DNA from: an uncultured Oscillibacter sp.
Lineage (GTDB): Bacteria; Bacillota; Clostridia; Oscillospirales; Oscillospiraceae
Direction of reading: 5' to 3'
Assembly: GCA_946183175.1 (NCBI GenBank)
Contig: CAMHBH010000003.1
Coordinates: forward strand, 1 to 32,762
DNA length: 32,762 nucleotides
Shown: positions 2,114-32,762 of the stretch, one piece after another
Layout: each line of letters starts with the position of its first letter
Numbering within the stretch: the stretch's first letter is position 1
The notes under the pieces: generated by a model
Databases searched by the model: none
The model's input: the letters and a program-made list of their open reading frames with translations, nothing else
Told to the model about the DNA's origin: nothing
Made by a program: the position numbers and the translations under genes

Positions 2114-2608
2114 ATGAAGAAAGTCGCGGTGATTATGGGCAGCGATTCCGACTGGCCGGTCGTGAAGGCGTCCTGCGACGCGCTCGGCGCGTTCGGGATT
2201 CCCTACGAGGCCCACATCTACAGCGCGCACCGTACCCCGGAGGAGGCCGCGCGGTTCGCCCGCGACGCCCGCGCGAACGGCTACGGCGTCCTGATTTGCG
2301 CGGCGGGCATGGCGGCACACCTCGCGGGCGCGTTCGCGGCGAATACCACCCTTCCCGTGATTGGCATTCCCATGAAGGGCGGCGCGCTCGACGGCCTCGA
2401 CGCCTTACTCGCTACCGTACAAATGCCGGGCGGTATTCCCGTCGCGACCGTCTCGCTCAACGGCGCGAAGAATGCCGCGATTCTGGCGGCGGAAATTCTG
2501 GCCGTCGGCGACGATACGCTCGCCGCGAAACTCGAAGCCGAACGCGACACCATGCGGCGGCAAATCGCCGAAAAAGAGGCGGCCTTGCAGGCCTCCTTGA
2601 AGGCCTGA
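2114..2608 (+). CDS. purE: 5-(carboxyamino)imidazole ribonucleotide mutase, PurE
   Basis: MGSDSDWPV...YSAHRTPE...AGMAAHLAG...[30 protein letters not shown] favours ATG 2114 over 2105. Confidence 0.95.
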
Positions 2609-2622
2609 CGGGGAGAAATGGC

Positions 2623-4044
2623 ATGGGCGGATTTTTTGGAACAATATCCCGGCGCAACTGCGTGATGGACTTGTTTTTCGGCGTGGACTATCACTCCCAT
2701 TTGGGCACGCGACGCGGCGGCATGGTGGTCTACAGTCCGAAGGACGGCTTTCAGCGGCAGATTCACAGTATCGAGAACACGCCCTTCCGGACGAAGTTCG
2801 AGGCCGATTTGCCGAAATTCCACGGCACCAGCGGAATCGGCTGTATCAGCGACACCGACCCGCAACCGCTTTTAGTGCGGTCGCATTTGGGCCTCTACGC
2901 GATTTCCACCGTAGGGCGAATCAACAACGCCGAACAGCTCGCGGAGAAATACTTCTCCATGGGCGGGCGGCAGTTCATGGCGATGAGTTCCGGCGAAGTC
3001 AACGCCTCCGAACTGACGGCGGCGCTTATCAACGAGGCGGATTCGTTCCCGGAGGGTATCCGGCGGGCACAGGAGAGTATCGACGGCTCGTCGAGTATCC
3101 TGCTACTGACGCCCGACGGCCTGATTGCGGCCCGTGACAGGCTGGGCCGCCTGCCCGTACTCGTAGGCCAGAACGACGACGGCTGTTGTGTGTCGTTCGA
3201 GTCGTTTGCCTACCAGAAGTTAGGCTACCGGACAGTCCGTGAACTCGGCCCGGGCGAAATCGTGCGTATCACGCCGGAGGGTGTCGAACAACTGCGCGCG
3301 CCGGGGGACACTATGCGCATTTGCGCCTTTCTCTGGACTTACTACGGCTACCCCAATTCCAACTATGAGGGCGTCAACGTGGAGGTCATGCGCTACCAGA
3401 ACGGGGAAATCATGGCGCGCGAGGAGGCGCTACAGGACACGCTCCCCGACGTGGATTTCGTGGCGGGGGTGCCGGATTCCGGACTTCCGCACGCTATCGG
3501 CTACGCGAACCGTTCCGGCAAACGCTTTGCGCGCCCGTTCGTGAAGTATACGCCAACCTGGCCGCGCTCGTTCATGCCGGAAAATCAGGAAGTACGAAAC
3601 CAGGTTGCCAAAATGAAGCTGATTCCCGTCCCGGAACTCATTGAGGGGCGGAAACTGCTGTTCGTGGATGATTCGATAGTCCGGGGAACGCAGTTGCGGG
3701 AGACGCTCGAGTTTCTCTACGGGAGCGGCGCGAAGGAAGCGCATATTCGTTCGGCCTGTCCTCCGGTGATGTACGGCTGTAAGTACCTGAACTTCTCGCG
3801 GAGCAATTCCGACATGGAACTGCTGGCGCGCCGTACCGTGCAACTGCTGGAAGGCAACGACGGACAGGAGCACCTCGAAGAGTACGCGGACGCCTCGACG
3901 GAGCGCGGGCAGTGCCTGTTGAAGTCGATTTGCGAACAGATGGGGTTCCACTCACTGGGCTACCAGTCGATGGACGGGCTTTTGGAGGCAATCGGAATCG
4001 ACCGGGACAAGATTTGCACCTACTGCTGGACGGGGAAGGAATAG
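2623..4044 (+). CDS. purF: Amidophosphoribosyltransferase homolog (PurF family) with an atypical glutaminase domain
   Basis: PRTase motif [38 protein letters not shown]-terminus [37 protein letters not shown]; pur operon context. Confidence 0.88.
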
Positions 4045-4055
4045 GAGGACATTCT

Positions 4056-4775
4056 ATGGAAAAGCTGGAACAAATCTACGAAGGCAAGGCCAAGAAGGTA
4101 TACCGCACGGACGACCCCGAACTCTGTATTGTGGAGTACAAGGACGACGCGACGGCGGAGAACGGCAAGAAACGCGGTACGATTGTCGGCAAGGGCGTCG
4201 TCAACAACCAGATGACCAACCGTCTCATGGCGCGCATGGAGAAGGCCGGGATTCCGACGCATTTCGTACGGGAACTCAGCGAGCGCGAGACACTGGTCAA
4301 GAAGGTGTCGATTGTGCCGCTGGAAGTGATTATCCGGAACATTTCGGCGGGGCATTTCGCGTCGCGCTACGGCGTCGAGGAGGGGATTGTATTCGACAGC
4401 CCCACGATTGAGTTTTCGTACAAGAATGACGAACTCGACGACCCGCTTCTGAACGCCTACCACGCCCGCGCGTTGAAACTCGCGACGGCGGAGGAAATCG
4501 AGACCATCAAAAAGTACGCGTTCGCGGTCAACGACAAGCTGAAAGCGTTCTGGAAGGAATGCGGCGTGATACTCGTCGACTTTAAGCTGGAGTTCGGGCG
4601 TCTCCCCGACGGTACCATCGTACTCGCCGACGAAATCAGCCCGGACACCTGCCGCCTGTGGGACGAGAAGACGCATGAGAAATTAGACAAAGACCGTTTC
4701 CGCCGCGACATGGGCGGCGTCGAGGACGCCTACGCGGAAGTCATGAAGCGCTTGCTTGCGCACGACAACGGATAA
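4056..4775 (+). CDS. purC: Phosphoribosylaminoimidazole-succinocarboxamide synthase (SAICAR synthetase)
   Basis: YEGKAKKVYRTDD...DDATA...VPLEVIIRNISAGHFASRYG...LADEISPDTCRLWD; RBS AGGAGG. Confidence 0.96.
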   Translation: MEKLEQIYEGKAKKVYRTDDPELCIVEYKDDATAENGKKRGTIVGKGVVNNQMTNRLMARMEKAGIPTHFVRELSERETLVKKVSIVPLEVIIRNISAGHFASRYGVEEGIVFDSPTIEFSYKNDELDDPLLNAYHARALKLATAEEIETIKKYAFAVNDKLKAFWKECGVILVDFKLEFGRLPDGTIVLADEISPDTCRLWDEKTHEKLDKDRFRRDMGGVEDAYAEVMKRLLAHDNG

Positions 4776-4796
4776 TTCGCGGAGGAGGTGCTAGGG

Positions 4797-5831
4797 GTGC
4801 GCAGTTTTTCGGAGAGCTACAAGGCGGCGGGCGTCGATATCGAGGCCGGATACGCCGGAGTGAAACTCATGCGCGGGCACGTCGAGCGGACGAATATCCC
4901 GGGCGTACTGTCGGGGCTGGGCGGTTTCGGGGGGCTGTTCGCCCCGGACTTGAGCGCATACAAAGACCCGGTACTGGTGTCGGGCACGGACGGCGTCGGG
5001 ACTAAAATCCGTATCGCGCAACTGATGAACCGTCACGACACGGTCGGCATTGACTGCGTGGCGATGTGCGTCAACGACGTGCTGTGCTGTGGGGCAAAGC
5101 CGCTGTTCTTCCTGGACTATATCGCAATCGGGAAGAACGACCCGGAGAAAGTAGCGTCGATAGTTTCTGGCGTGGCGGAGGGCTGCGTACAGGCCGGGTG
5201 CGCGCTTCTGGGCGGCGAGACCGCCGAACACCCCGGAATCATGAAGGCCGACGACTACGATTTAGCCGGGTTTACGGTGGGCATTGTCGACCGCGCCCGG
5301 CTCCTTGACAATACGGCTATCGTCCCCGGCGACGTTGTAATCGCGCTTCCGTCGTCCGGACTGCACTCCAACGGCTTTTCGCTGGTGCGGCAGGTGTTCC
5401 ACGTCGAGACGGGGAGCTTGACGCGCAAAGTGCCGGAGTTGGGCTGTATGCTGGGCGAGGCCTTACTGACCCCGACGACGATTTATGTCAAGCCGGTGTC
5501 GCGCTGTCTGGAAACCCTGCGGGTAAAGGGTATCAGCCACATTACGGGCGGCGGCTTTCAGGAGAACATTCCGCGCTGTCTGCCGAAGGGCGTCTCGGCG
5601 AAGCTGGACAAGGCCGCGATTCGCACTCCGCCCATATTCCAACTCTTGCGGGACATGGGCCACATCCCGGAGCGCGACATGTTCAATACGTTCAACATGG
5701 GCGTGGGCATGGTCATGGTCGTGGCGGCGGACATCGCCGACCGGGCTATGGAACTCTTGCGCGGGGAGGGCTGTCAGGGGTATCTACTCGGCGAGATTGT
5801 CGCGGGCGACGAGGGCGTGATTCTCTGTTGA
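4797..5831 (+). CDS. purM: Phosphoribosylformylglycinamidine cyclo-ligase (AIR synthetase)
   Basis: SYKAAGVDIEAGYAGVKLM...VSGTDGVGTK...CCGAKPLFFLDYIA...GGETAEHPG...HITGGGFQENIPR; likely GTG start at 4797 (4788 also possible). Confidence 0.95.
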   Translation: MRSFSESYKAAGVDIEAGYAGVKLMRGHVERTNIPGVLSGLGGFGGLFAPDLSAYKDPVLVSGTDGVGTKIRIAQLMNRHDTVGIDCVAMCVNDVLCCGAKPLFFLDYIAIGKNDPEKVASIVSGVAEGCVQAGCALLGGETAEHPGIMKADDYDLAGFTVGIVDRARLLDNTAIVPGDVVIALPSSGLHSNGFSLVRQVFHVETGSLTRKVPELGCMLGEALLTPTTIYVKPVSRCLETLRVKGISHITGGGFQENIPRCLPKGVSAKLDKAAIRTPPIFQLLRDMGHIPERDMFNTFNMGVGMVMVVAADIADRAMELLRGEGCQGYLLGEIVAGDEGVILC

Positions 5832-5855
5832 AGGCGTGAAAGGGAGAGAGGGAGT

Positions 5856-6476
5856 ATGGAGAAAGTCCGGATAGCGGTATTCGTGTCGGGCGGCGGTACG
5901 AATCTGGAAGCGTTGCTCAACGCGCAGGAGCGCGGGGAAATCCCGCACGGGGAAATTGTACTGGTGGTGTCGAGCGCGGCGGGGGCCTACGCGCTGACGC
6001 GCGCGGAGCGGCACGGCGTACACGCTGTGACAGTCGCGCGGAAGGGCCGCGCCCCGCAGGATTTCGAGGCGGAACTGTTGCGGCGTCTGCTGGAAGCCAA
6101 AATAGACGTAATCGTACTGGCGGGGTTCCTGACGATTCTCTCGGAGGAGTTCGTAAAGCTCTGGCCGGGGCGTATCCTGAATGTACACCCGTCGCTGATT
6201 CCGTCGTTCTGCGGCAAGGGCTACTACGGGCTGAGAGTACACGAGGAGGCGCTGGCGCGGGGCGTGAAAGTCACGGGCGCGACGGTTCACCTTGTCAACG
6301 AGATTCCCGACGGCGGCGAGATTCTCTTACAGAAAGCCGTGGAAGTCCTCCCCGGCGACACCCCGGAAGTTTTGCAAAAGCGCGTGATGGAGCAGGCGGA
6401 ATGGGTACTCCTCCCGCGCGCAGCGGAGATGGTATGCGCACAACTTTTCGAGAACGGAGGCGGCGAAAATGCGTGA
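5856..6476 (+). CDS. purN: Phosphoribosylglycinamide formyltransferase (GART)
   Basis: VFVSGGGTNLEALL...VLAGFLTILS...RILNVHPSLIPSFCGKGYYG...VTGATVHLVNEIPDGGEIL. Confidence 0.95.
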   Translation: MEKVRIAVFVSGGGTNLEALLNAQERGEIPHGEIVLVVSSAAGAYALTRAERHGVHAVTVARKGRAPQDFEAELLRRLLEAKIDVIVLAGFLTILSEEFVKLWPGRILNVHPSLIPSFCGKGYYGLRVHEEALARGVKVTGATVHLVNEIPDGGEILLQKAVEVLPGDTPEVLQKRVMEQAEWVLLPRAAEMVCAQLFENGGGENA

Positions 6477-7647
6477 ACTGGAATTGAAGTACGGCTGTAA
6501 CCCGAACCAGAAGCCCGCGCGAATTTTCATGCGCGGGGAGCGGGAGTTGCCGATTGAGGTACTCAACGGCAAACCGGGCTATATCAACTTTCTGGACGCG
6601 TTCAACTCGTGGCAGTTGGTGCGGGAGCTGAAAGCGGCGACGGGTATGCCGGCGGCGGCGTCCTTTAAGCACGTCTCCCCGGCGGGGGCCGCGCTGGGGA
6701 ATCCGATTTGCGAGACGGGCCGGAAAATCCTGTTCGTCGAGGACGGGCTGGAACTGTCCCCGATTGCCTGTGCCTATGTCCGCGCGCGCGGCTCGGACAG
6801 GCTCTGCTCCTACGGCGACTGGGCCGCGCTGTCGGACATCTGCGACGAACCCACGGCGCGCTATCTCAAAAACGAGGTCTCCGACGGGATAATCGCCCCC
6901 GGCTACACGAAAGAGGCGTTGGAAATCCTCAAAACCAAGAAGAAGGGCGGCTACAACGTCGTGCAAATCGACCCCGACTACGTGCCGGAGCATGAGGAGT
7001 ACAAGGACGTATTCGGTATCACGTTCCAGCAGGGCCGCAACGACTACAAAATCGACGCGTCGATTTTAGGCAACATCGTCACGAAGAACAAAGACCTCCC
7101 CGACGCCGCCAAGCGTGACATGATGGTCGCGCTGATTACGCTCAAATATACGCAGTCGAACTCCGTCTGCTACGTGCGGGAGGGGCACGCAATCGGGGTT
7201 GGGGCCGGACAGCAAAGCCGGATACACTGTACGCGCCTGGCCGGGAATAAGGCCGACAACTGGTTTTTGCGCCACCACCCGCGCGTATTGGAACTGCAAT
7301 TCGTGGACAGTATCCGCCGCGCCGAGCGCGACAACGCGATTGATGTGTATTTGTCCGACGAGTACGAGGACATTCTGGCGGAGGGCGTCTGGCAAAATAC
7401 GTTCCGTATCAAGCCCGAACCCCTCACGCGCGAGGAGAAACGCGACTGGATTGCAAAGTTTTCGGGCGTGACGGTCGGCTCCGACGCCTTTTTCCCGTTC
7501 GGCGACAACGTCGAGCGGGCGCGCAAGAGCGGCGCGAACTATATCGTACAGCCCGGCGGTTCCATCCGCGACGACAACGTCATCGCCACCGCCGACAAGT
7601 ACAATATGGTCATGTCCTTCACGGGAATGCGCCTGTTCCACCACTGA
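6469..7647 (+). CDS. purH: Stand-alone AICAR formyltransferase (PurV / PurH C-terminal domain only)
   Basis: 392 aa; [14 protein letters not shown]...[12 protein letters not shown]...[10 protein letters not shown]...[19 protein letters not shown]...[13 protein letters not shown]; no MGS-like IMP cyclohydrolase domain. Start overlaps the purN stop by 8 nt. Confidence 0.9.
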
Positions 7648-7662
7648 GCGACGGAGGCAGTC

Positions 7663-8940
7663 ATGAAATTACTGGTAGTAGGCGGCGGGGGCCGCGAACA
7701 CGCAATCATTAAGAAACTGCGCGAAAATCCCGACGTGTCCGAGATTTACGCGCTCCCGGGCAACGGCGGAATCTCCGCTGACGCGATTTGTATTCCGGAA
7801 ATCGGCGCGAAAGACCTTGACGGCATTGTGAACTTTGCCAGGTCGCGCGCGATTGATTTCGCGGTTGTCGCGCCCGACGACCCGCTGGCGCTGGGCTGTG
7901 TCGACAGGTTGCACGCGGCCGGGATTCCGTGTTTCGGCCCCGACGCCAAGGCCGCGCGTATCGAAAGCAGTAAGGTATTCGCCAAGAATCTTATGCGGAA
8001 GTACGGCATTCCTACGGCGGATTACCGGGTTTTCACGTCGCCGGAGACGGCGCTAGAGTATCTGGAAACGGCGAAATTCCCGATAGTCTTAAAGGCCGAC
8101 GGTCTCGCGCTGGGGAAAGGCGTACTGATTGCGCAAAGTCCCGACGAGGCGCGTCAGGCCGTGCGGACGCTCATGCAGGACAGGATTTTCGGCGCGGCGG
8201 GGGACGAAATCGTCATAGAGGAATTTCTGACGGGCCCGGAGGTCAGCGTACTGGCCTTCACGGACGGGACGGCGATTTCGCCGATGGTCTCGTCAATGGA
8301 CCATAAGCGCGCCGGGGACGGCGACACCGGGCTGAATACGGGCGGCATGGGGACGGTAGCCCCGAACCCGTACTACACGCCGGAAGTCGCGAAAATCTGT
8401 ATGGACACGATTTTCCTGCCGACGCTGGACGCCATGCGGAAAGAGGGGTGCCCGTTCAAGGGCTGTCTGTACTTCGGGCTCATGCTGACGCCCGACGGCC
8501 CCCGGGTTATCGAGTACAACTGCCGTTTCGGCGACCCGGAGACGCAAGTCGTGCTACCGCTCCTGAAAACCGACCTTCTGACGATTATGCAGGCGGTTGA
8601 GGCGGGAACGCTGTCGGAAATCGCGGTGGAGTGGGCGGACGCCTGCGCGGCCTGTGTCATACTGGCGTCGGGGGGCTACCCGGAGAAGTACGAGACCGGA
8701 AAGCCGATTCACTTTACGTCGCCCATGCCGCCGAACGTCACCTGCTACCACGCCGGGGACAGGGACAGTCACGGACAGCTCGTGACATCCGGCGGGCGCG
8801 TACTGGGTGTAACCGCCGTCGCGCCTACGCTACGGGAGGCCTTGCGCGACGCGTACCGGGCCGCGGATACGGTGGAATTCGACGGAAAGTATCTGCGTCG
8901 CGACATCGGGGCCCGGGCCTTACAGGCCGGAATGCGCTGA
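7663..8940 (+). CDS. purD: Phosphoribosylamine-glycine ligase
   Basis: [15 protein letters not shown]...[13 protein letters not shown]...[19 protein letters not shown]. Confidence 0.97.
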
Positions 8941-8967
8941 GCGACACTAGCAAAGGAGGGAGAGTGC

Positions 8968-11900
8968 GTGGTAAGGCGGGTTTATGTAGAGAAGAAAGAG
9001 GGCTTGCGGCAGGAGGCCGAAAGTCTGTGCCGGGAACTGCGGAGCGTGCTGGGCATCAAGGCCCTGCGGGGCGTGCGTATCGTTCACCGCTACGACGTGG
9101 AGGGACTGGACGGGCCGACATTCGACCGCGCTGTCCGGACGGTGTTTTCGGAGCCGCAAGTCGACGAGGCGTCGCCGGTGCTGTCGCTCGACGCCGACGG
9201 CGTGGAGACGATATTCGGCGTGGAGGCGCTCCCGGGACAGTTCGACCAGCGCGCCGACTCGGCGGCGGCGTGTATCCAGCTCATGACGCGCGGGGCGCGG
9301 CCCGTCGTGCGCGCGGCGGAGGTGTACAGGCTTTCGGGGAAGCTGACTGCGGAAGACGTGGAGCGTATCAAGCGGTACGTCATAAACCCCGTGGAGACGC
9401 GCGAGGCGTGCCGGGAAGTCCCGGAGACTTTACAGGCCCATTGGGAGCCGCCCGCGCCCGTGGAGACCGTGGACGGATTCACCACACTGGACGAGGGCGG
9501 GCTGTCGGCGTTACTCGACCGGATGGGCCTTGCCATGGACATCGACGACCTGAAATTCCTACAGGCGCATTTCCGCGACGAGGAGCGCCGCGACCCCACC
9601 GTGACGGAAATCCGCGTCGTCGACACCTACTGGTCAGACCACTGCCGGCACACGACATTCTCGACGCATATTGACCGCGTGGAAATCGTGAGCCCGGAAG
9701 TACAGGCGGCGTATGAGCGCTACTTGTCAGCGCGGGCGGAAGTCTACGGGGAGAAGGCGTCGACGCGGCCTCAAACCCTGATGGACATCGCCACCGTCGG
9801 GGCGAAAGTCCTGAAGCGGCGCGGACTGCTGAAGAATCTGGACGAGAGCGAGGAAATCAACGCCTGTTCGGTGCGCGTGACGGCGACCGTCGACGGCAAG
9901 CCGGAAGATTGGCTGTTGATGTTCAAGAACGAGACGCACAACCACCCGACGGAAATCGAGCCGTTCGGCGGGGCGGCGACGTGTATCGGCGGGTGTATCC
10001 GCGACCCGCTGTCGGGGCGGGTATGGGTGTACCAGGCCATGCGCGTGACGGGCTGTGGAGACCCGCGCGCGCCCGTCGCGGACACGCTTCCCGGGAAACT
10101 CCCGCAACGCAAATTGGCGCAGACCGCCGCCGCCGGGTATTCGTCCTACGGCAACCAAATCGGCCTCGCGACGGGACTTGTCAGCGAGCTTTACCACCCC
10201 GGATACGTGGCGAAACATATGGAAATCGGCGCGGTCGTGGGCGCGGCCCCGGCTGGGAATGTCGTCCGGGAGCGCCCCGCGCCGGGGGATGTCGTGATAC
10301 TCCTGGGCGGGCGTACCGGGCGCGACGGAATCGGCGGCGCGACGGGTTCGTCGAAGAGCCACAATCAAAAGTCGCTGTCGACGATGGCGAGCGAAGTACA
10401 GAAGGGCAACGCGCCCGAAGAGCGTAAACTGCAACGGCTGTTCCGCGACGCGGCGGTGACGCGCCTTGTGAAGCGCTGTAACGATTTCGGGGCGGGCGGC
10501 GTGAGCGTGGCAATCGGGGAACTCGCCGACGGGCTGGAAATCAATCTGGACGCGGTTCGGAAGAAGTACGAGGGCCTCGACGGAACGGAACTTGCGATTT
10601 CGGAATCGCAGGAACGAATGGCGGTGGTCGTCGCGCCGGAGAATGTGGACGCGCTGACGGCGGCGGCGGAGCGTGAGAATTTAGAGGCGTACCCGGTGGC
10701 GGAGGTGACGGACGCGCCGCGCATGGTCATGAAGTGGCAGGGCGCGACGATAGTCAACCTGTCGCGGGCGTTCCTGAATACGAACGGCGCGGAGAAGCAT
10801 ATTACCGTAGAGGTGACGGAGCGCCGGACGGCCCCGGAAGCGTTCCCGGACACCTTGCGCGGCATGGCGTCGGACTTGCGCACGGCGTCGCGGCGCGGAC
10901 TGGCCGAACGGTTTGATTCGACCGTCGGCGCGGGTTCGGTACTCATGCCGTTCGGGGGCGTGGCGCAGAAGACCCCGACACAGGTCATGGCGGCGCTGTT
11001 GCCCGTACTCCCCGGGCAGGAGACGGAAGACTGTAGCGTGATGTCGTGGGGCTTTGACCCGGAGGCGATGTCGGCGGACCCGTTCGAGGGGGCGCGGCGG
11101 AGCGTGACAGTCTCGCTCGCGAAGCTGTGCGCGGCGGGTTGCGACTACCGCGACGCGTACCTGACGTTCCAGGAGTATTTCGAGAAACTCCGGCAGGAGC
11201 CGACGCGCTGGGGCGTACCGTTCGCGGCGCTGCTGGGCGCGCTGGACGCGCAGTTAGGCTTTGGCGTGGCGGCGATTGGCGGAAAGGATTCCATGTCGGG
11301 TTCGTTCCTTGACATGGACGTGCCGCCGACGCTGGTCTCGTTCGCGATTGCCCCGGCGAAGGCCGGTGACATTCTGTCGCCGGAGTTCAAGCGCGCTGGG
11401 AAGAAGTACGGGAACCCGGTGTACCTGTTCGGCGGTTCGCCCGACTATACCGAACTGAAAACGGCGTGGGACAAGTTCCACGCGCTCTGTCAGGCCGGGA
11501 AAGTCAAGGCGGCCTGGGCGGTGGAGTACGGCGTAGCCGAGGCCGTCATGAAGATGTCGTTCGGGAATCACGTCGGATTCCGCGCGGAAACCGAGGCCGA
11601 TATTCCGTGGTACGCTCCCTGTCCGGGCGCGATTGTCGCGGAACTGTCGGAGGAAGTCGGGGACGGCGTACAAATCGGCGTCACGACGCTGGAGCCCGTC
11701 GTAAGTATCGGCGACGACCGCGCGGCGGTCAAAGAACTGATTGCCTTAAACGAAGGCGTATTAGAGGACGTGTACCCGAACCGCGCGGAGACCGGGGAGA
11801 CGTGGGCCCCCGTCCTGACCGACACCGGGGCGCGCGAGAAAATCGCGCCGAAAGTCGGCGTTGCGACGCCGCGCGTACTGATTCCGGTATTCCCGGGCAC

Positions 11901-12666
11901 CAACTGCGAGTACGACAGCGCGCGCGCCGCCATACGCGCCGGACTGCACGCCGAAATTTTCGTGATTAACAACCAGTCGGCGGAGGGCGTGGAGGATTCC
12001 GCGAACCGTTTCGCCGGGAGGGTGGCGGAAAGTCAGATTATTTTCATCCCGGGCGGATTCTCGGGCGGCGACGAACCCGACGGTTCCGGAAAGTTCATTA
12101 CGGCGTTTTTCCGCAACCCGGGCGTGTCGGACGCGGTCATGGAACTGCTCAAGGAGCGCGACGGGCTGATGTTAGGCGTCTGCAACGGCTTTCAGGCGCT
12201 CATCAAACTCGGCCTCGTGCCCTACGGCGAAATTCGCGACATGGACGCCGACTGTCCCACGCTCAGTTACAACGTCATCGGGCGGCACCAGTCGCGCATT
12301 GTCCGGACGCGGGTCGCGTCGCGGCGTTCGCCGTGGCTGTCGCGCGTCCGCGAGGGCGATATTGTAAACGTGCCGATTTCCCACGGCGAGGGGCGCTTCC
12401 TGTGCCCGCATGACCTGTTGACGAAACTCGGCGCGAATGGGCAGATTGCCACGCAATATGTTGATTTGAAAGGGAATCCGTCGATGGATGTGGAGTACAA
12501 CCCGAACGGGTCAGCATGGGCCGTAGAGGGCCTGCTGTCGCCGGACGGGCGCGTATTCGGCAAGATGGGACACTCGGAGCGCGTTGGCCCGGCGCTCTAC
12601 CGCAACGTCCCCGGCGACTACGACTTGGGCCTGTTCGATTCCGCAAAGGACTATTTCAGTGTATAA
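8968..12666 (+). CDS. purL: Phosphoribosylformylglycinamidine synthase, long fused form
   Basis: 1232 aa; ETHNHPTEIEPFGGAATCIGGCIRD; C-terminal glutaminase with FPGTNCEYD and LGVCNGFQAL; GTG start with AAAGGAGGG RBS. Confidence 0.96.
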   Translation: MVRRVYVEKKEGLRQEAESLCRELRSVLGIKALRGVRIVHRYDVEGLDGPTFDRAVRTVFSEPQVDEASPVLSLDADGVETIFGVEALPGQFDQRADSAAACIQLMTRGARPVVRAAEVYRLSGKLTAEDVERIKRYVINPVETREACREVPETLQAHWEPPAPVETVDGFTTLDEGGLSALLDRMGLAMDIDDLKFLQAHFRDEERRDPTVTEIRVVDTYWSDHCRHTTFSTHIDRVEIVSPEVQAAYERYLSARAEVYGEKASTRPQTLMDIATVGAKVLKRRGLLKNLDESEEINACSVRVTATVDGKPEDWLLMFKNETHNHPTEIEPFGGAATCIGGCIRDPLSGRVWVYQAMRVTGCGDPRAPVADTLPGKLPQRKLAQTAAAGYSSYGNQIGLATGLVSELYHPGYVAKHMEIGAVVGAAPAGNVVRERPAPGDVVILLGGRTGRDGIGGATGSSKSHNQKSLSTMASEVQKGNAPEERKLQRLFRDAAVTRLVKRCNDFGAGGVSVAIGELADGLEINLDAVRKKYEGLDGTELAISESQERMAVVVAPENVDALTAAAERENLEAYPVAEVTDAPRMVMKWQGATIVNLSRAFLNTNGAEKHITVEVTERRTAPEAFPDTLRGMASDLRTASRRGLAERFDSTVGAGSVLMPFGGVAQKTPTQVMAALLPVLPGQETEDCSVMSWGFDPEAMSADPFEGARRSVTVSLAKLCAAGCDYRDAYLTFQEYFEKLRQEPTRWGVPFAALLGALDAQLGFGVAAIGGKDSMSGSFLDMDVPPTLVSFAIAPAKAGDILSPEFKRAGKKYGNPVYLFGGSPDYTELKTAWDKFHALCQAGKVKAAWAVEYGVAEAVMKMSFGNHVGFRAETEADIPWYAPCPGAIVAELSEEVGDGVQIGVTTLEPVVSIGDDRAAVKELIALNEGVLEDVYPNRAETGETWAPVLTDTGAREKIAPKVGVATPRVLIPVFPGTNCEYDSARAAIRAGLHAEIFVINNQSAEGVEDSANRFAGRVAESQIIFIPGGFSGGDEPDGSGKFITAFFRNPGVSDAVMELLKERDGLMLGVCNGFQALIKLGLVPYGEIRDMDADCPTLSYNVIGRHQSRIVRTRVASRRSPWLSRVREGDIVNVPISHGEGRFLCPHDLLTKLGANGQIATQYVDLKGNPSMDVEYNPNGSAWAVEGLLSPDGRVFGKMGHSERVGPALYRNVPGDYDLGLFDSAKDYFSV

Positions 12667-12678
12667 GTGAGGTGCGTC

Positions 12679-14184
12679 ATGGCATACTTTTTCCCGGAAC
12701 CGTCCCACACGTTCAGCGAGTACCTTCTTGTCCCGGGCTACTCCTCCTCGGAGTGTATCCCGGCGAACGTGTCGCTCAAGACCCCGGTCGTGAAGTTCCG
12801 CCGGGGCGAGGAATCCCCCCTGACAATGAATGTCCCTATGGTCTCCGCCGTCATGCAGGCGGTGTCCGGGGAAAAGATGGGCGTCGCGCTGGCCAAAGAG
12901 GGCGGAATCGCCTTTATCTACGTCTCCCAGCCGATAGCCGAACAGGCCGACATGGTTCGCCGCGTCAAGCGTACGAAGGCGGGCTTTGTGGTCAGCGCGA
13001 GCAACCTGAAAATCGGCGACACCCTCTCCGACGTGCTGGCCCTCAAGGAACGTACGGGCTACTCCACGATGGCGGTCACGGAGGACGGCACCGGAACCGG
13101 AAAGCTGTTGGGGCTTGTCACGAGCCGGGACTACCGGGTGAGCCGGATGTCGCCGGAGACGAAGGTCGCGGATTTCATGACGCCCGTCTCGAAACTCGTC
13201 ACGGCGAAGGCGGGCGTGACGCTCAGCGAGGCCAACGACATTCTGTGGGAGCACAAGCTGAACGCGTTGCCGATTGTCACGCCGGACGGCTACCTTGATT
13301 CGTTCGTGTTCCGCAAGGACTACGATTCGCACAAGGAAAACCCGCTGGAACTCCTCGACGGCAAAAAGCGCTACGTCGTCGGCGCGGGAATCAACACGCG
13401 CGACTACGAGGAACGCGTCCCGGCGCTGGTCGAGGCGGGCGTGGACGTATTAGTGATTGATTCGTCGGAAGGCTTTTCGGAGTGGCAGTCGCGGACGCTC
13501 TCCTGGATTCGCTCCCGCTACGGCGACAAGGTGAAAGTCGGGGCGGGGAACGTCGTCGACGGCGACGGCTTCCGGTTCCTGGCCGACGCGGGCGCGGATT
13601 TCGTGAAAATCGGAATCGGCGGCGGGTCGATTTGCATCACCCGCGAAACGAAGGGTATCGGGCGCGGACAGGCCACGGCGGTTATCGACACCGCCAAGAC
13701 CCGCGACGAATACTTTGAGCAAACCGGCGTCTACGTGCCGCTCTGCGCCGACGGCGGAATCGTGCAGGACTACCACATCACGCTCGCGCTGGCGATGGGG
13801 GCCGACTTCTGCATGCTGGGCCGCTACTTCTCGCGGTTCGACGAGTCGCCGAGCAACAAAATCCTCATGGGCGGGAGCTACATGAAGGAATACTGGGGCG
13901 AGGGGAGCGCGCGCGCGCGCAACTGGCAACGCTACGACTTAGGCGGGGCGTCGAAGCTGAGCTTTGAGGAGGGCGTGGATTCCTACGTGCCCTACGCGGG
14001 GGCGCTGTCGGACGGCATGGCCTCGACGCTGGCGAAAATCCGCTCGACCATGTGCAACTGCGGCGCGCTGACGATTCCCGAACTCCGCGACAAGGCTAAA
14101 CTGACGCTGGTTTCGTCGGTGTCGATAGTCGAGGGCGGCGCACACGACGTGCTCTTGAAGGATACCACCAACGGCAGTAAATGA
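12679..14184 (+). CDS. guaB: IMP dehydrogenase
   Basis: [35 protein letters not shown]-like middle; [23 protein letters not shown]. Confidence 0.92.
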
Positions 14185-30981: not shown

Positions 30982-31003
30982 TATTTAGATGAACTTCTAA
31001 ATA
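30982..31003. promoter_or_regulatory. Palindromic operator candidate for the ArsR/SdpR-like repressor
   Basis: TATTTAGA-tgaact-TCTAAATA right after the -10; related copy TATTTAGAaaaACTTC upstream near 30926. Confidence 0.6.
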
Positions 31004-31018
31004 GAAAGAGGGGTGGAC

Positions 31019-31297
31019 ATGGGATTCGGAGAGACTTTCAAAGCGTTGTCGAACCCCGTCCGGCGGGAAATCCTGACGCTTCTCAAAGGCGGGAAACTGT
31101 CCGCCGGGGAAATCTCCGCGCGGTTCGGCCTCACCGGGGCCACGATTTCCCATCATTTAAGCGTCCTGAAACACGCCGAACTCGTGTTCGAGACCCGCGA
31201 GAAAAATTACATCTACTACCAGTTGAATACGTCCGTACTAGAGGACGCGCTGTGCTGGATTGCCGACTTGAAAGGAGGCTCTTCCCGTGAAACGTAA
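31019..31297 (+). CDS. ArsR/SdpR-family winged-helix repressor
   Basis: FKALSNPVRREILTLLKGGKLSAGEISARFGLTGATISHHLSVLKHAELV; RBS AGAGGGG. Confidence 0.92.
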   Translation: MGFGETFKALSNPVRREILTLLKGGKLSAGEISARFGLTGATISHHLSVLKHAELVFETREKNYIYYQLNTSVLEDALCWIADLKGGSSRET

Positions 31298-31916
31298 TCT
31301 CTTACTGACTTCCGCCTGTATCCTGTTGCCTGTCTGCGCGGGCGTCGTACTCTGGGGGCGACTGCCCGAACGTGTCCCGACGCACTTCAATTTCTACGGC
31401 GTCCCGGACGGGTGGAGTTCCAAGGCGTTCGCCGTATTCGGACTGCCGCTGTTCCTGCTGGGCTTGCAACTGCTCTGCGCGTTCGCGATGTCGCACGACC
31501 CGAAGGCGGGCAACGTCGGCGGGAAAATCCGCGCCCTCGTACTGTGGATTTGTCCGGCGGTGTCGCTGTTCGCGGCGGCGATGATTTACCCGCATGCGCT
31601 GGGCTACTCCGTGAATATGACCATGTTCGCCATGCTCCTTACGGGTACGCTGTTCGTCGTGCTGGGGAACTACCTCCCCAAGTGCCGACAGAATTACACG
31701 ATAGGAATCAAACTCCCGTGGACGCTCGCCGACGAGGACAACTGGAACCGTACGCACCGTATGGCCGGGCCGCTATGGGTCGCGGGGGGCTTTCTGGTGA
31801 TTCTCGACGCCCTGTTACAGTTCGCGGGGCCGTACCTGTTCGCGGGCGTGCTGACGTTGATTGCCGTCGCGCCCATCGTTTATTCCGCCGCGCTGTACGT
31901 CGCGAAGCGCAAGTAA
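31287..31916 (+). CDS. SdpI-family membrane protein (DUF1648 + SdpI)
   Basis: LPERVPTHFNFYGVPDGWSSK...NYTIGIKLPWTLADEDNWNRTHRMAGPLWVAGG; start overlaps repressor stop. Confidence 0.92.
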   Translation: MKRNLLLTSACILLPVCAGVVLWGRLPERVPTHFNFYGVPDGWSSKAFAVFGLPLFLLGLQLLCAFAMSHDPKAGNVGGKIRALVLWICPAVSLFAAAMIYPHALGYSVNMTMFAMLLTGTLFVVLGNYLPKCRQNYTIGIKLPWTLADEDNWNRTHRMAGPLWVAGGFLVILDALLQFAGPYLFAGVLTLIAVAPIVYSAALYVAKRK

Positions 31917-31991
31917 CGCAACTCCCCGTTTCCACGGGTGGCGGTGCTGTACTGGTTCTGGTGGGTGCCGCGCTGTACGCAAATAACGCAA

Positions 31992-32020
31992 CCTCCCCCG
32001 TTTTCACGGGGGAGGCCTTT
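31992..32020. terminator. Hairpin between sdpI-like gene and the 60-aa - strand ORF
   Basis: CCTCCCCCG-ttttca-CGGGGGAGG. Confidence 0.65.
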
Positions 32021-32201
32021 ACTGGTAGCGGTATTGCAGTCCGGCGTACTGGTTGACGCAACTCCAGAACAATTCCTGACTGCGGAACTCCAGCAGACAC
32101 GCGTTTTCCTGTTCGTGGAACGAGACGACGCGCTGTTGGGCGTCAATCCAGACCCGCCAGAGCGTTTCCGGATTCGCCGCCGCTTCTTTTACTCTGTCCA
32201 T
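32019..32201 (-). CDS. Small 60-aa protein of unknown function
   Basis: MDRVKEAAANPETLWRVWIDAQQRVVSFHEQENACLLEFRSQELFWSCVNQYAGLQYRYQ; stop abuts the hairpin; RBS weak. Confidence 0.5.
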   Translation of the reverse strand: MDRVKEAAANPETLWRVWIDAQQRVVSFHEQENACLLEFRSQELFWSCVNQYAGLQYRYQ

Positions 32202-32221
32202 TCCGGACGCCGTTACTGAAA

Positions 32222-32475
32222 ACTTACAAAAAGTTATAAACTCTTCCGTTTCATTCCTGTTTCAACGAGTATGCTTTCGCCGGACGGCTACTCACAGGTT
32301 CTTGTACTCTCCACAGGCGTAAATTCCCGGCTAACGAACCGGTACATATCAAAGCAACGCGTTTCATTGCCTGATACCTTTGATATTTTACGCGGGAAAG
32401 GTTCGACTTGGTTCTCGTCTTTCATTTCTTCCCGCAACCGCCTATATCAAGTTTTCAAGGTGCGTTTGCTTCTCC
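32222..32475 (-). ncRNA. Candidate structured non-coding RNA or long structured leader (possibly raiA-motif-like)
   Basis: Starts just downstream of a consensus - strand promoter; contains stems GCGGGAA/TTCCCGC, ATATCAAAG/CTTTGATAT, CCGG/CCGG, nested CCTGT/ACAGG + GAGTA/TACTC, and GC-GAAA-GC; no convincing ORF. Confidence 0.75.
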
Positions 32476-32478
32476 CGC

Positions 32479-32507
32479 ATTATATCGCACCCCATACCCG
32501 TTGTCAA
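32479..32507 (-). promoter_or_regulatory. Consensus sigma-A promoter for the structured RNA
   Basis: On - strand TTGACA, 17-nt spacer (acgggtatggggtgcga), TATAAT. Confidence 0.85.
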
Positions 32508-32625
32508 GATTCAGAAGTTTATAACAAGTAAATTTTCCTAACGGCTCGCCTCCCTTCTAAAATTTAATAATTTTTAGCAACTTTTTACAAGTTTCTTTTA
32601 ACTGTTAGAACCCCCTTTCCGTCTG

Positions 32626-32762
32626 TCAGTCTGTTTCGGCCTCCGCCTCCGCTTCCGCCACGAGGCGCGCCTTCACCGACGCGATGTCGCCGCGCAACGC
32701 CTCCCATGCCTCCGGGTGCTCCACGTAGTACACCGGACACCGCTTTCCGGTTACGTCATAGT
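32626..32762 (-). CDS. C-terminal fragment of an uncharacterised protein (5' end outside window)
   Basis: Open from window edge: [44 protein letters not shown]. Confidence 0.55.

Follow-up and report, generated by a model that had tools for sequence, protein, structure and literature searches.

Guide-RNA loci without an adjacent nuclease gene are known from the IscB family, in the form of the standalone trans omega RNAs of Ktedonobacter. These belong to the IscB/IS200-IS605 type and, unlike the RNA described here, have no IS607 RAGATH-18 scaffold, and we know of none that carries the leader (D1) reported below. IS607-family TnpB nucleases use a guide RNA (reRNA) whose scaffold is RAGATH-18 (Ren et al. 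2024, PMC11061315). In these systems the reRNA follows tnpB, usually accompanied by tnpA, the guide comes after the scaffold and its 3′ flank with a best length of 20 nt, and the TAM is AGGAG or GAGGG (PMC11061315). As tnpB adjoins 64 % of RAGATH-18 RNAs (PMC11061315), a missing tnpB upstream does not disqualify a reRNA assignment. The locus analysed here shares the scaffold sequence and structure, the 3′ flank, the guide position and an AGGAG-type TAM by the left end, but its RNA stands alone with its own promoter and D1. Group B (IS607-type) IStrons likewise have IS607-type ends, a GG core target, an RNA-coding 5′ module and ORF-less variants (PMC4227781); they contain a group I intron, whereas none was found in our element.

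The window, meaning the whole stretch of 32,762 nt that was analysed, is an entire contig (C3) of a fragmented 2.05-Mb Oscillibacter genome (G000). A preliminary description had placed a stand-alone structured ncRNA of about 250 nt at 32222-32507. A structured RNA does occur there, but the true unit is larger, namely a mobile element of ~402 bp on the - strand (32212..32613) that is IS607-type, non-autonomous and contains neither tnpA nor tnpB. Instead of a stand-alone ncRNA gene, the RNA is the reRNA of this transposable element, and we consider it probable that it represents the product of a miniature IS607-family element, a guide-RNA gene uncoupled from its nuclease that would act in trans. 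The borders, with the left end (LE) at 32613 and the right end (RE) at 32212, were defined by copies whose homology starts and ends at identical bases and by an empty site in a related-species genome (G064). The AT-rich LE (32508..32613, -) is conserved in A-type left ends, carries AAACTTGTAAAAAGTT, an imperfect inverted repeat of the RE as read from the sequence, and is matched with 79 % identity over 42 nt by the LE of an autonomous element (L040). The RE and 3′ flank of the reRNA (32212..32253, -) end in AAGTTTTCAGTAAC, a border common to all A-type copies, and a GG core lies directly beyond the RE at 32211-32210; copies have this core at both ends, ahead of the LE and behind the RE. Over the RAGATH-18 scaffold and RE the window is 97 % identical to tnpB-carrying copies, and the position directly upstream of the scaffold is occupied by the LE, promoter and D1 instead of tnpB.

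Four RAGATH-18 copies were identified in the window's genome. Three are of the window type, one of them truncated at a contig end, and the fourth is a diverged copy on contig C10. The full-length copy on C142 displays 92 % identity to the window element, and two full copies in a second genome (G019) display 90-91 %. Five contigs (C188, C143, C183, C130 and C124) end within further copies, as repeats in a draft assembly would be expected to do. Neither tnpA nor tnpB occurs in any full copy of the window's type. A tnpB-carrying version was found in G024 (L040 and L041) in the order LE (seen in L040), tnpB, reRNA, RE, and the window's genome has a tnpB of matching lineage (92 % identity over 272 aa) that is truncated by the end of contig C129. 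No serine-recombinase tnpA is present inside the element, and no IS607 TnpA scored above the NCBIfam NF033518 cut-off in the eight RAGATH-18-bearing genomes searched (G000, G018, G019, G023, G024, G045, G047 and G064), which contained only sub-threshold serine recombinases; the element was therefore filed as a non-autonomous derivative. Separately, in another RAGATH-18 subfamily, a second and unrelated structured RNA of ~230 nt (module X) lies between the LE and reRNA, occupying the place of tnpB, again in solo elements (L005:5782-6153 on the - strand of G000:C10, L090, L092, L117, L119, L130, L095 and L089). In these elements both members of eight predicted pairs were changed, some of these pairs lying in the reRNA hairpin, and one copy of module X had no Rfam match at E < 10.

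The RAGATH-18 scaffold (RF03064; 32254..32317, -) was detected at 68.8 bits against a gathering threshold of 44.9 (E 6e-12), covering model positions 1-71/71. No other Rfam family reached threshold in the window (cmscan, 4227 families), and a permissive search of an 863-nt region added one match at chance level. The window also contains a purine biosynthesis cluster at 2296-14184 (AIR-synthetase-like, GARS, FGAM synthetase and IMP dehydrogenase), and no purine riboswitch scored above the Rfam threshold in the window despite it. Within the scaffold there are two copies of the CCUGU/GAGUA strand, and the preliminary description and the minimum free energy fold both used the second to build the 3′ domain stem. 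The Rfam alignment uses the first, pairing CCUGU 32317-32313 with ACAGG 32260-32256 and GAGUA 32309-32305 with UACUC 32271-32267. In genus homologs, changes in the inner partner are matched in the first copy (CUGCG/CGCAG, CUGUG/CACAG and GAGUA/UACUC), the second copy staying GAGUA or nearly so, and the first copy was paired in 18/18 sequences checked for the inner helix. The outer helix cannot discriminate the copies because G-U pairs let either fit. The 5′ flank of the reRNA (32318..32345, -) contains a hairpin formed by CCGG 32342-32339 and CCGG 32330-32327, the pairs of which covary in related B-type reRNAs; its sequence GTACCGGTTCGTTAGCCGG also stands after tnpB in L040/L041.

Transcription from the - strand was predicted from a TTGACA-17-TATAAT promoter (32479..32507, -), a perfect 12/12 consensus match, as first described, and the sole promoter-like site in 31000-32762, where shuffles averaged 0.6. 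The promoter is retained at 10-12/12 in the full-length copies on C142 and on C38 and C43 of G019. The stems listed in the preliminary description were all present in the sequence, and its claim of a highly structured RNA was borne out: the 248-nt - strand RNA has a folding energy of -71.4 kcal/mol compared to -58.6 +/- 4.7 for shuffled sequences (z = -2.7), with 3/200 shuffles folding as low. The same description had seen no convincing ORF, and we found none conserved inside the RNA; the start or frame of a 38-aa - strand ORF (32367-32251) is lost in other copies. Homologs keep no protein frame, and covariation among them is present both in the D1 helices and in the scaffold, two outcomes in favour of the preliminary description.

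The D1 leader (32373..32464, -) comprises a probable boxA followed by two covarying helices, P1 (UUGAUAU 32450-32444 / AUAUCAA 32386-32380) and P2 (GCGGGAA 32435-32429 / UUCCCGC 32398-32392). It scored 104.5 bits with our covariance model R1, of which it is a training sequence. No Rfam family matched D1, so that the earlier suggestion of an undescribed class may hold for the leader, whilst the 3′ part of the RNA is the catalogued RAGATH-18. D1 is absent from tnpB-carrying copies, where the part from the promoter to the reRNA is missing. The leader is headed by the 14-mer GCACCTTGAAAACT (32450..32463, -), which occurs seven times in the genomes G001, G085 and G124, 6/7 of these inside 16S-23S rRNA spacers; a reversed control pattern was absent in the same comparison. 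We take this spacer motif of relatives to be boxA, and its position and sequence suggest that the 14-mer of D1 is likewise the boxA of the rRNA antitermination system. The resemblance to rRNA boxA sites extends to placement, as the 14 identical nucleotides closely follow the strong promoter of an RNA that is not translated, but in rRNA spacers no D1 helices follow and the best R1 score there was 11.7 bits. The 14-mer is also found at the start of a long leader of structured appearance that precedes a 365-aa ORF (L067:1501-1526, G124:C40), perhaps another boxA leader.

Oscillibacter copies alone are nearly invariant and thus uninformative for covariation in the 5′ part, for which Bacillus and other relatives were needed. 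Over 23 sequences, 97.2 % of cells in the D1 helices were paired and 9/14 pairs were changed on both sides, giving a covariation score of 0.539 compared to 0.185 +/- 0.020 in shuffles, none of which (0/500) reached the score; slid controls all scored far lower. The ~90 nt after the 14-mer were found by blastn at 73-78 % identity in 70 plasmids, 69/70 of them from Bacillus, and the D1 covariance model recovered the leader in 6/399 genomes of the phylum, a count that includes the window's genome. The new loci inspected by eye (G586, G648, G704, G779 and G543) mostly had what looked like IS200/IS605-type transposon-end hairpins. A promoter-like site was present within 60 nt upstream of D1 in 19/26 loci, compared to 20 % in shuffles. 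Exact matches to the D1 core pattern were absent from viral contigs, and pattern matches in Neomegalonema, Atopobiaceae and an alphaproteobacterium (L061, L063 and L065) were discarded as short chance matches with 23-38 nt aligned, that in L063 falling inside an ORF.

Dispersed short elements of ~355 bp on plasmids of the Bacillus cereus group (L154, L155, L156 and L158) combine D1 with ISBth16-like ends, the left end being 93 % identical to that of ISBth16 and the right-end hairpin related. In these, D1 lies between the left end and an omega-RNA-like 3′ half, a layout as in the window element. ISBth16 itself (L184, Bacillus) belongs to another transposon family, IS200/IS605, and carries tnpA and tnpB in the position that D1 occupies in the short elements. 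Repeats of 100-400 bp have been catalogued in B. cereus as bcr1-bcr18 (PMC6542083), and the short D1 elements of Bacillus plasmids are possibly one of these. Elements of a second transposon family have either kept or taken up D1, and its sequence there shows compensatory changes. Its antitermination role would follow from the boxA assignment, and we tentatively propose, as a possibility that we do not favour strongly, that D1, with its promoter, boxA and two covarying helices, represents a new class of processive antitermination leader acquired by guide-RNA-only elements of the unrelated families IS607 and IS200/IS605 across Bacillota, which would turn nuclease-linked omega/reRNAs into independent trans-acting guide-RNA genes.

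These data bear on an alternative explanation, that the element is a deletion derivative of an IS607 element, untranscribed and unused, with its structure kept only through the youth of the copies. The lack of tnpA and tnpB is consistent with such a dead relic, as are the 87-92 % likeness of some copies and the several cut by contig ends. However, full copies have an intact promoter, boxA, scaffold and set of D1 helices, and D1 is present with compensatory changes in a second transposon family; we regard this explanation as unlikely.

The element parts the Shine-Dalgarno (SD) sequence from the ATG of a downstream 60-aa gene (32019..32201, -), which has matches in 76/86 genus genomes and no Pfam match, and which is followed by a terminator-like hairpin at 32017-31990 (-) identified by a terminator scan. 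The left flank GGAAAGG (32614..32620, -) corresponds to the SD of the split gene, as indicated by anti-SD pairing and by the empty site AAAGGAG/CGTCC in G064, and is the TAM site. In G064 the gene pair is uninterrupted (ACGGAAAGGAG/CGTCCGGAATGGACAGAG), with the junction AAAGGAG followed by CGTCCGGAATGGACAGAG, such that the published TAM AGGAG directly precedes the exact sequence found in the window's guide position. The predicted guide CGTCCGGAATGGACAGAGTA (32190..32209, -), placed after the scaffold as described in PMC11061315, consists of host flank that includes the ATG of the next gene. This insertion preference was general in the genus, where an ATG-started ORF began 5-12 nt beyond the RE at 29/33 distinct RAGATH-18 RE ends compared to 4.2 % at random positions. 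Likewise, anti-SD pairing reached -6.9 kcal/mol or better in 7/10 A-type left flanks, and 8.7 % of random sites reach -6. Because an AGGAG TAM is itself a Shine-Dalgarno sequence, the residence of these elements between ribosome-binding sites and start codons is explained by their targeting. The genes hit include those for anaerobic ribonucleotide reductase, pyruvate kinase, ribosomal protein S9, DNA polymerase III alpha and a class II aminoacyl-tRNA synthetase. Individual RAGATH-18 elements (L115, L106, L093, L052 and L007) lie directly before the starts of rpsI, a dnaE-like gene, a class II aaRS gene, the pyruvate kinase gene and nrdD, with the native SD displaced in each case. Copies thus reside upstream of normally essential genes although the RE supplies no good SD ahead of the downstream ATG, and translation presumably survives via an SD-independent route or some structure. 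In B-type elements CUGCUAC could pair with GUAGCAG, a candidate for SD restoration. A lone A-type left end (L046:4466-4527, G023:C23) lies just upstream of a DinJ/RelB-like antitoxin gene, seemingly supplying its SD.

Given this position, the promoter and folded RNA might instead regulate the downstream gene as its 5′ UTR, with RAGATH-18 as a passenger. Such a leader would hide an SD-like AAAGG of D1 in P1 and free it via an alternative hairpin, D2 (32346..32386, -), formed by AUAUCAAAG (32386-32378) and CUUUGAUAU (32354-32346). The strand AUAUCAA (32386-32380) has two candidate partners, UUGAUAU 32450-32444 in P1 and 32354-32346 in D2, so that P1 and D2 compete for one strand and D2 is a possible alternative fold. 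The local pairing with 32354-32346 listed in the preliminary description may thus form, but the covarying alternative P1 uses the same strand; Oscillibacter copies are too alike for a covariation test of D2 against P1, and P1 has covariation support from the wider set. Outside elements of the kinds described above, D1 stands alone once (L045) and heads one KAP-NTPase gene (L044). In L044:2759-4712 (G023:C12) the same promoter and D1 recur ahead of this KAP-family NTPase gene and an SD (AGAGGAG) immediately follows helix P1 in the manner of a translational switch, an arrangement in keeping with a cis-acting role, as is the orientation of the window element toward the next gene, 8 nt away. In the window, however, no SD is found near the downstream ATG, unrelated genes follow different copies, and in scaffold, ends and guide geometry the element still matches the tnpB-carrying copies. 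A cis-acting leader is accordingly a decidedly improbable account.

The solo guide RNA with its own promoter, and a guide covering the SD/start-codon region, a good place for repression, also recall TldR-like domestication, in which a promoter or gene start would be blocked by a TnpB relative that does not cleave. Among solved structures the L040 TnpB matches 8iaz best, and it aligns to this structure through GIDLGLKD, EDLNV and DR.F.AALNL stretches, and a live nuclease is for this reason likelier than a TldR-like dead one. The partner TnpB keeps these stretches of an active nuclease family and is still in a transposon, and what the guide matches is the empty site, which the filled locus lacks, leaving this reading with very little probability. 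We give even less credence to a mini-IStron, a self-splicing intron fused to transposon ends whose excision from the host transcript would bring SD and ATG back together. IS607-type IStrons exist, insert in GG-containing targets and are known in ORF-less variants (PMC4227781), and splicing would explain insertions before essential genes, but neither the element region nor a B-type solo element has a group I or II intron match in Rfam. Finally, the raiA motif, the first candidate of the preliminary description, or another catalogued stand-alone ncRNA has a probability close to nil, as no supporting point was found, RAGATH-18 was the only family detected by cmscan and raiA had no match in either that or the permissive search.

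We therefore return to a miniature IS607-family element, in which both transposon ends and the guide-RNA scaffold are retained, with promoter and D1 standing where tnpB-carrying copies have tnpB. RNA polymerase would initiate at about 32472, and the D1 boxA would recruit rRNA-type antitermination machinery so that the untranslated RNA is completed, including a guide of ~20 nt copied from the flanking gene start. TnpB from another copy may then bind and process the RNA, and the complex would cut the same site where the element is absent, recognizing the AGGAG TAM in the SD and the start-codon region through the guide. Repair from a filled copy would retain the element. The IscB omega RNAs of Ktedonobacter are a precedent for a guide RNA separated from its nuclease, and the new features here are the promoter-driven mini IS607 element, D1 and the SD/start-codon niche, no description of which was found in text searches of open-access PubMed Central papers, the full scope of our literature search, where absence is weak evidence.

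If this reading is correct, transposon guide RNAs can escape their nuclease gene and share one solution for transcribing a long untranslated RNA. It also raises the puzzle of how translation continues for genes that have lost their SD, the ribosomal protein S9 gene among them. D1 is a candidate antitermination element and a candidate means of expressing guide RNAs, and, should the proposed role of D1 hold, its acquisition would be an evolutionary step on a par with that by which guide and nuclease became separate in CRISPR systems.
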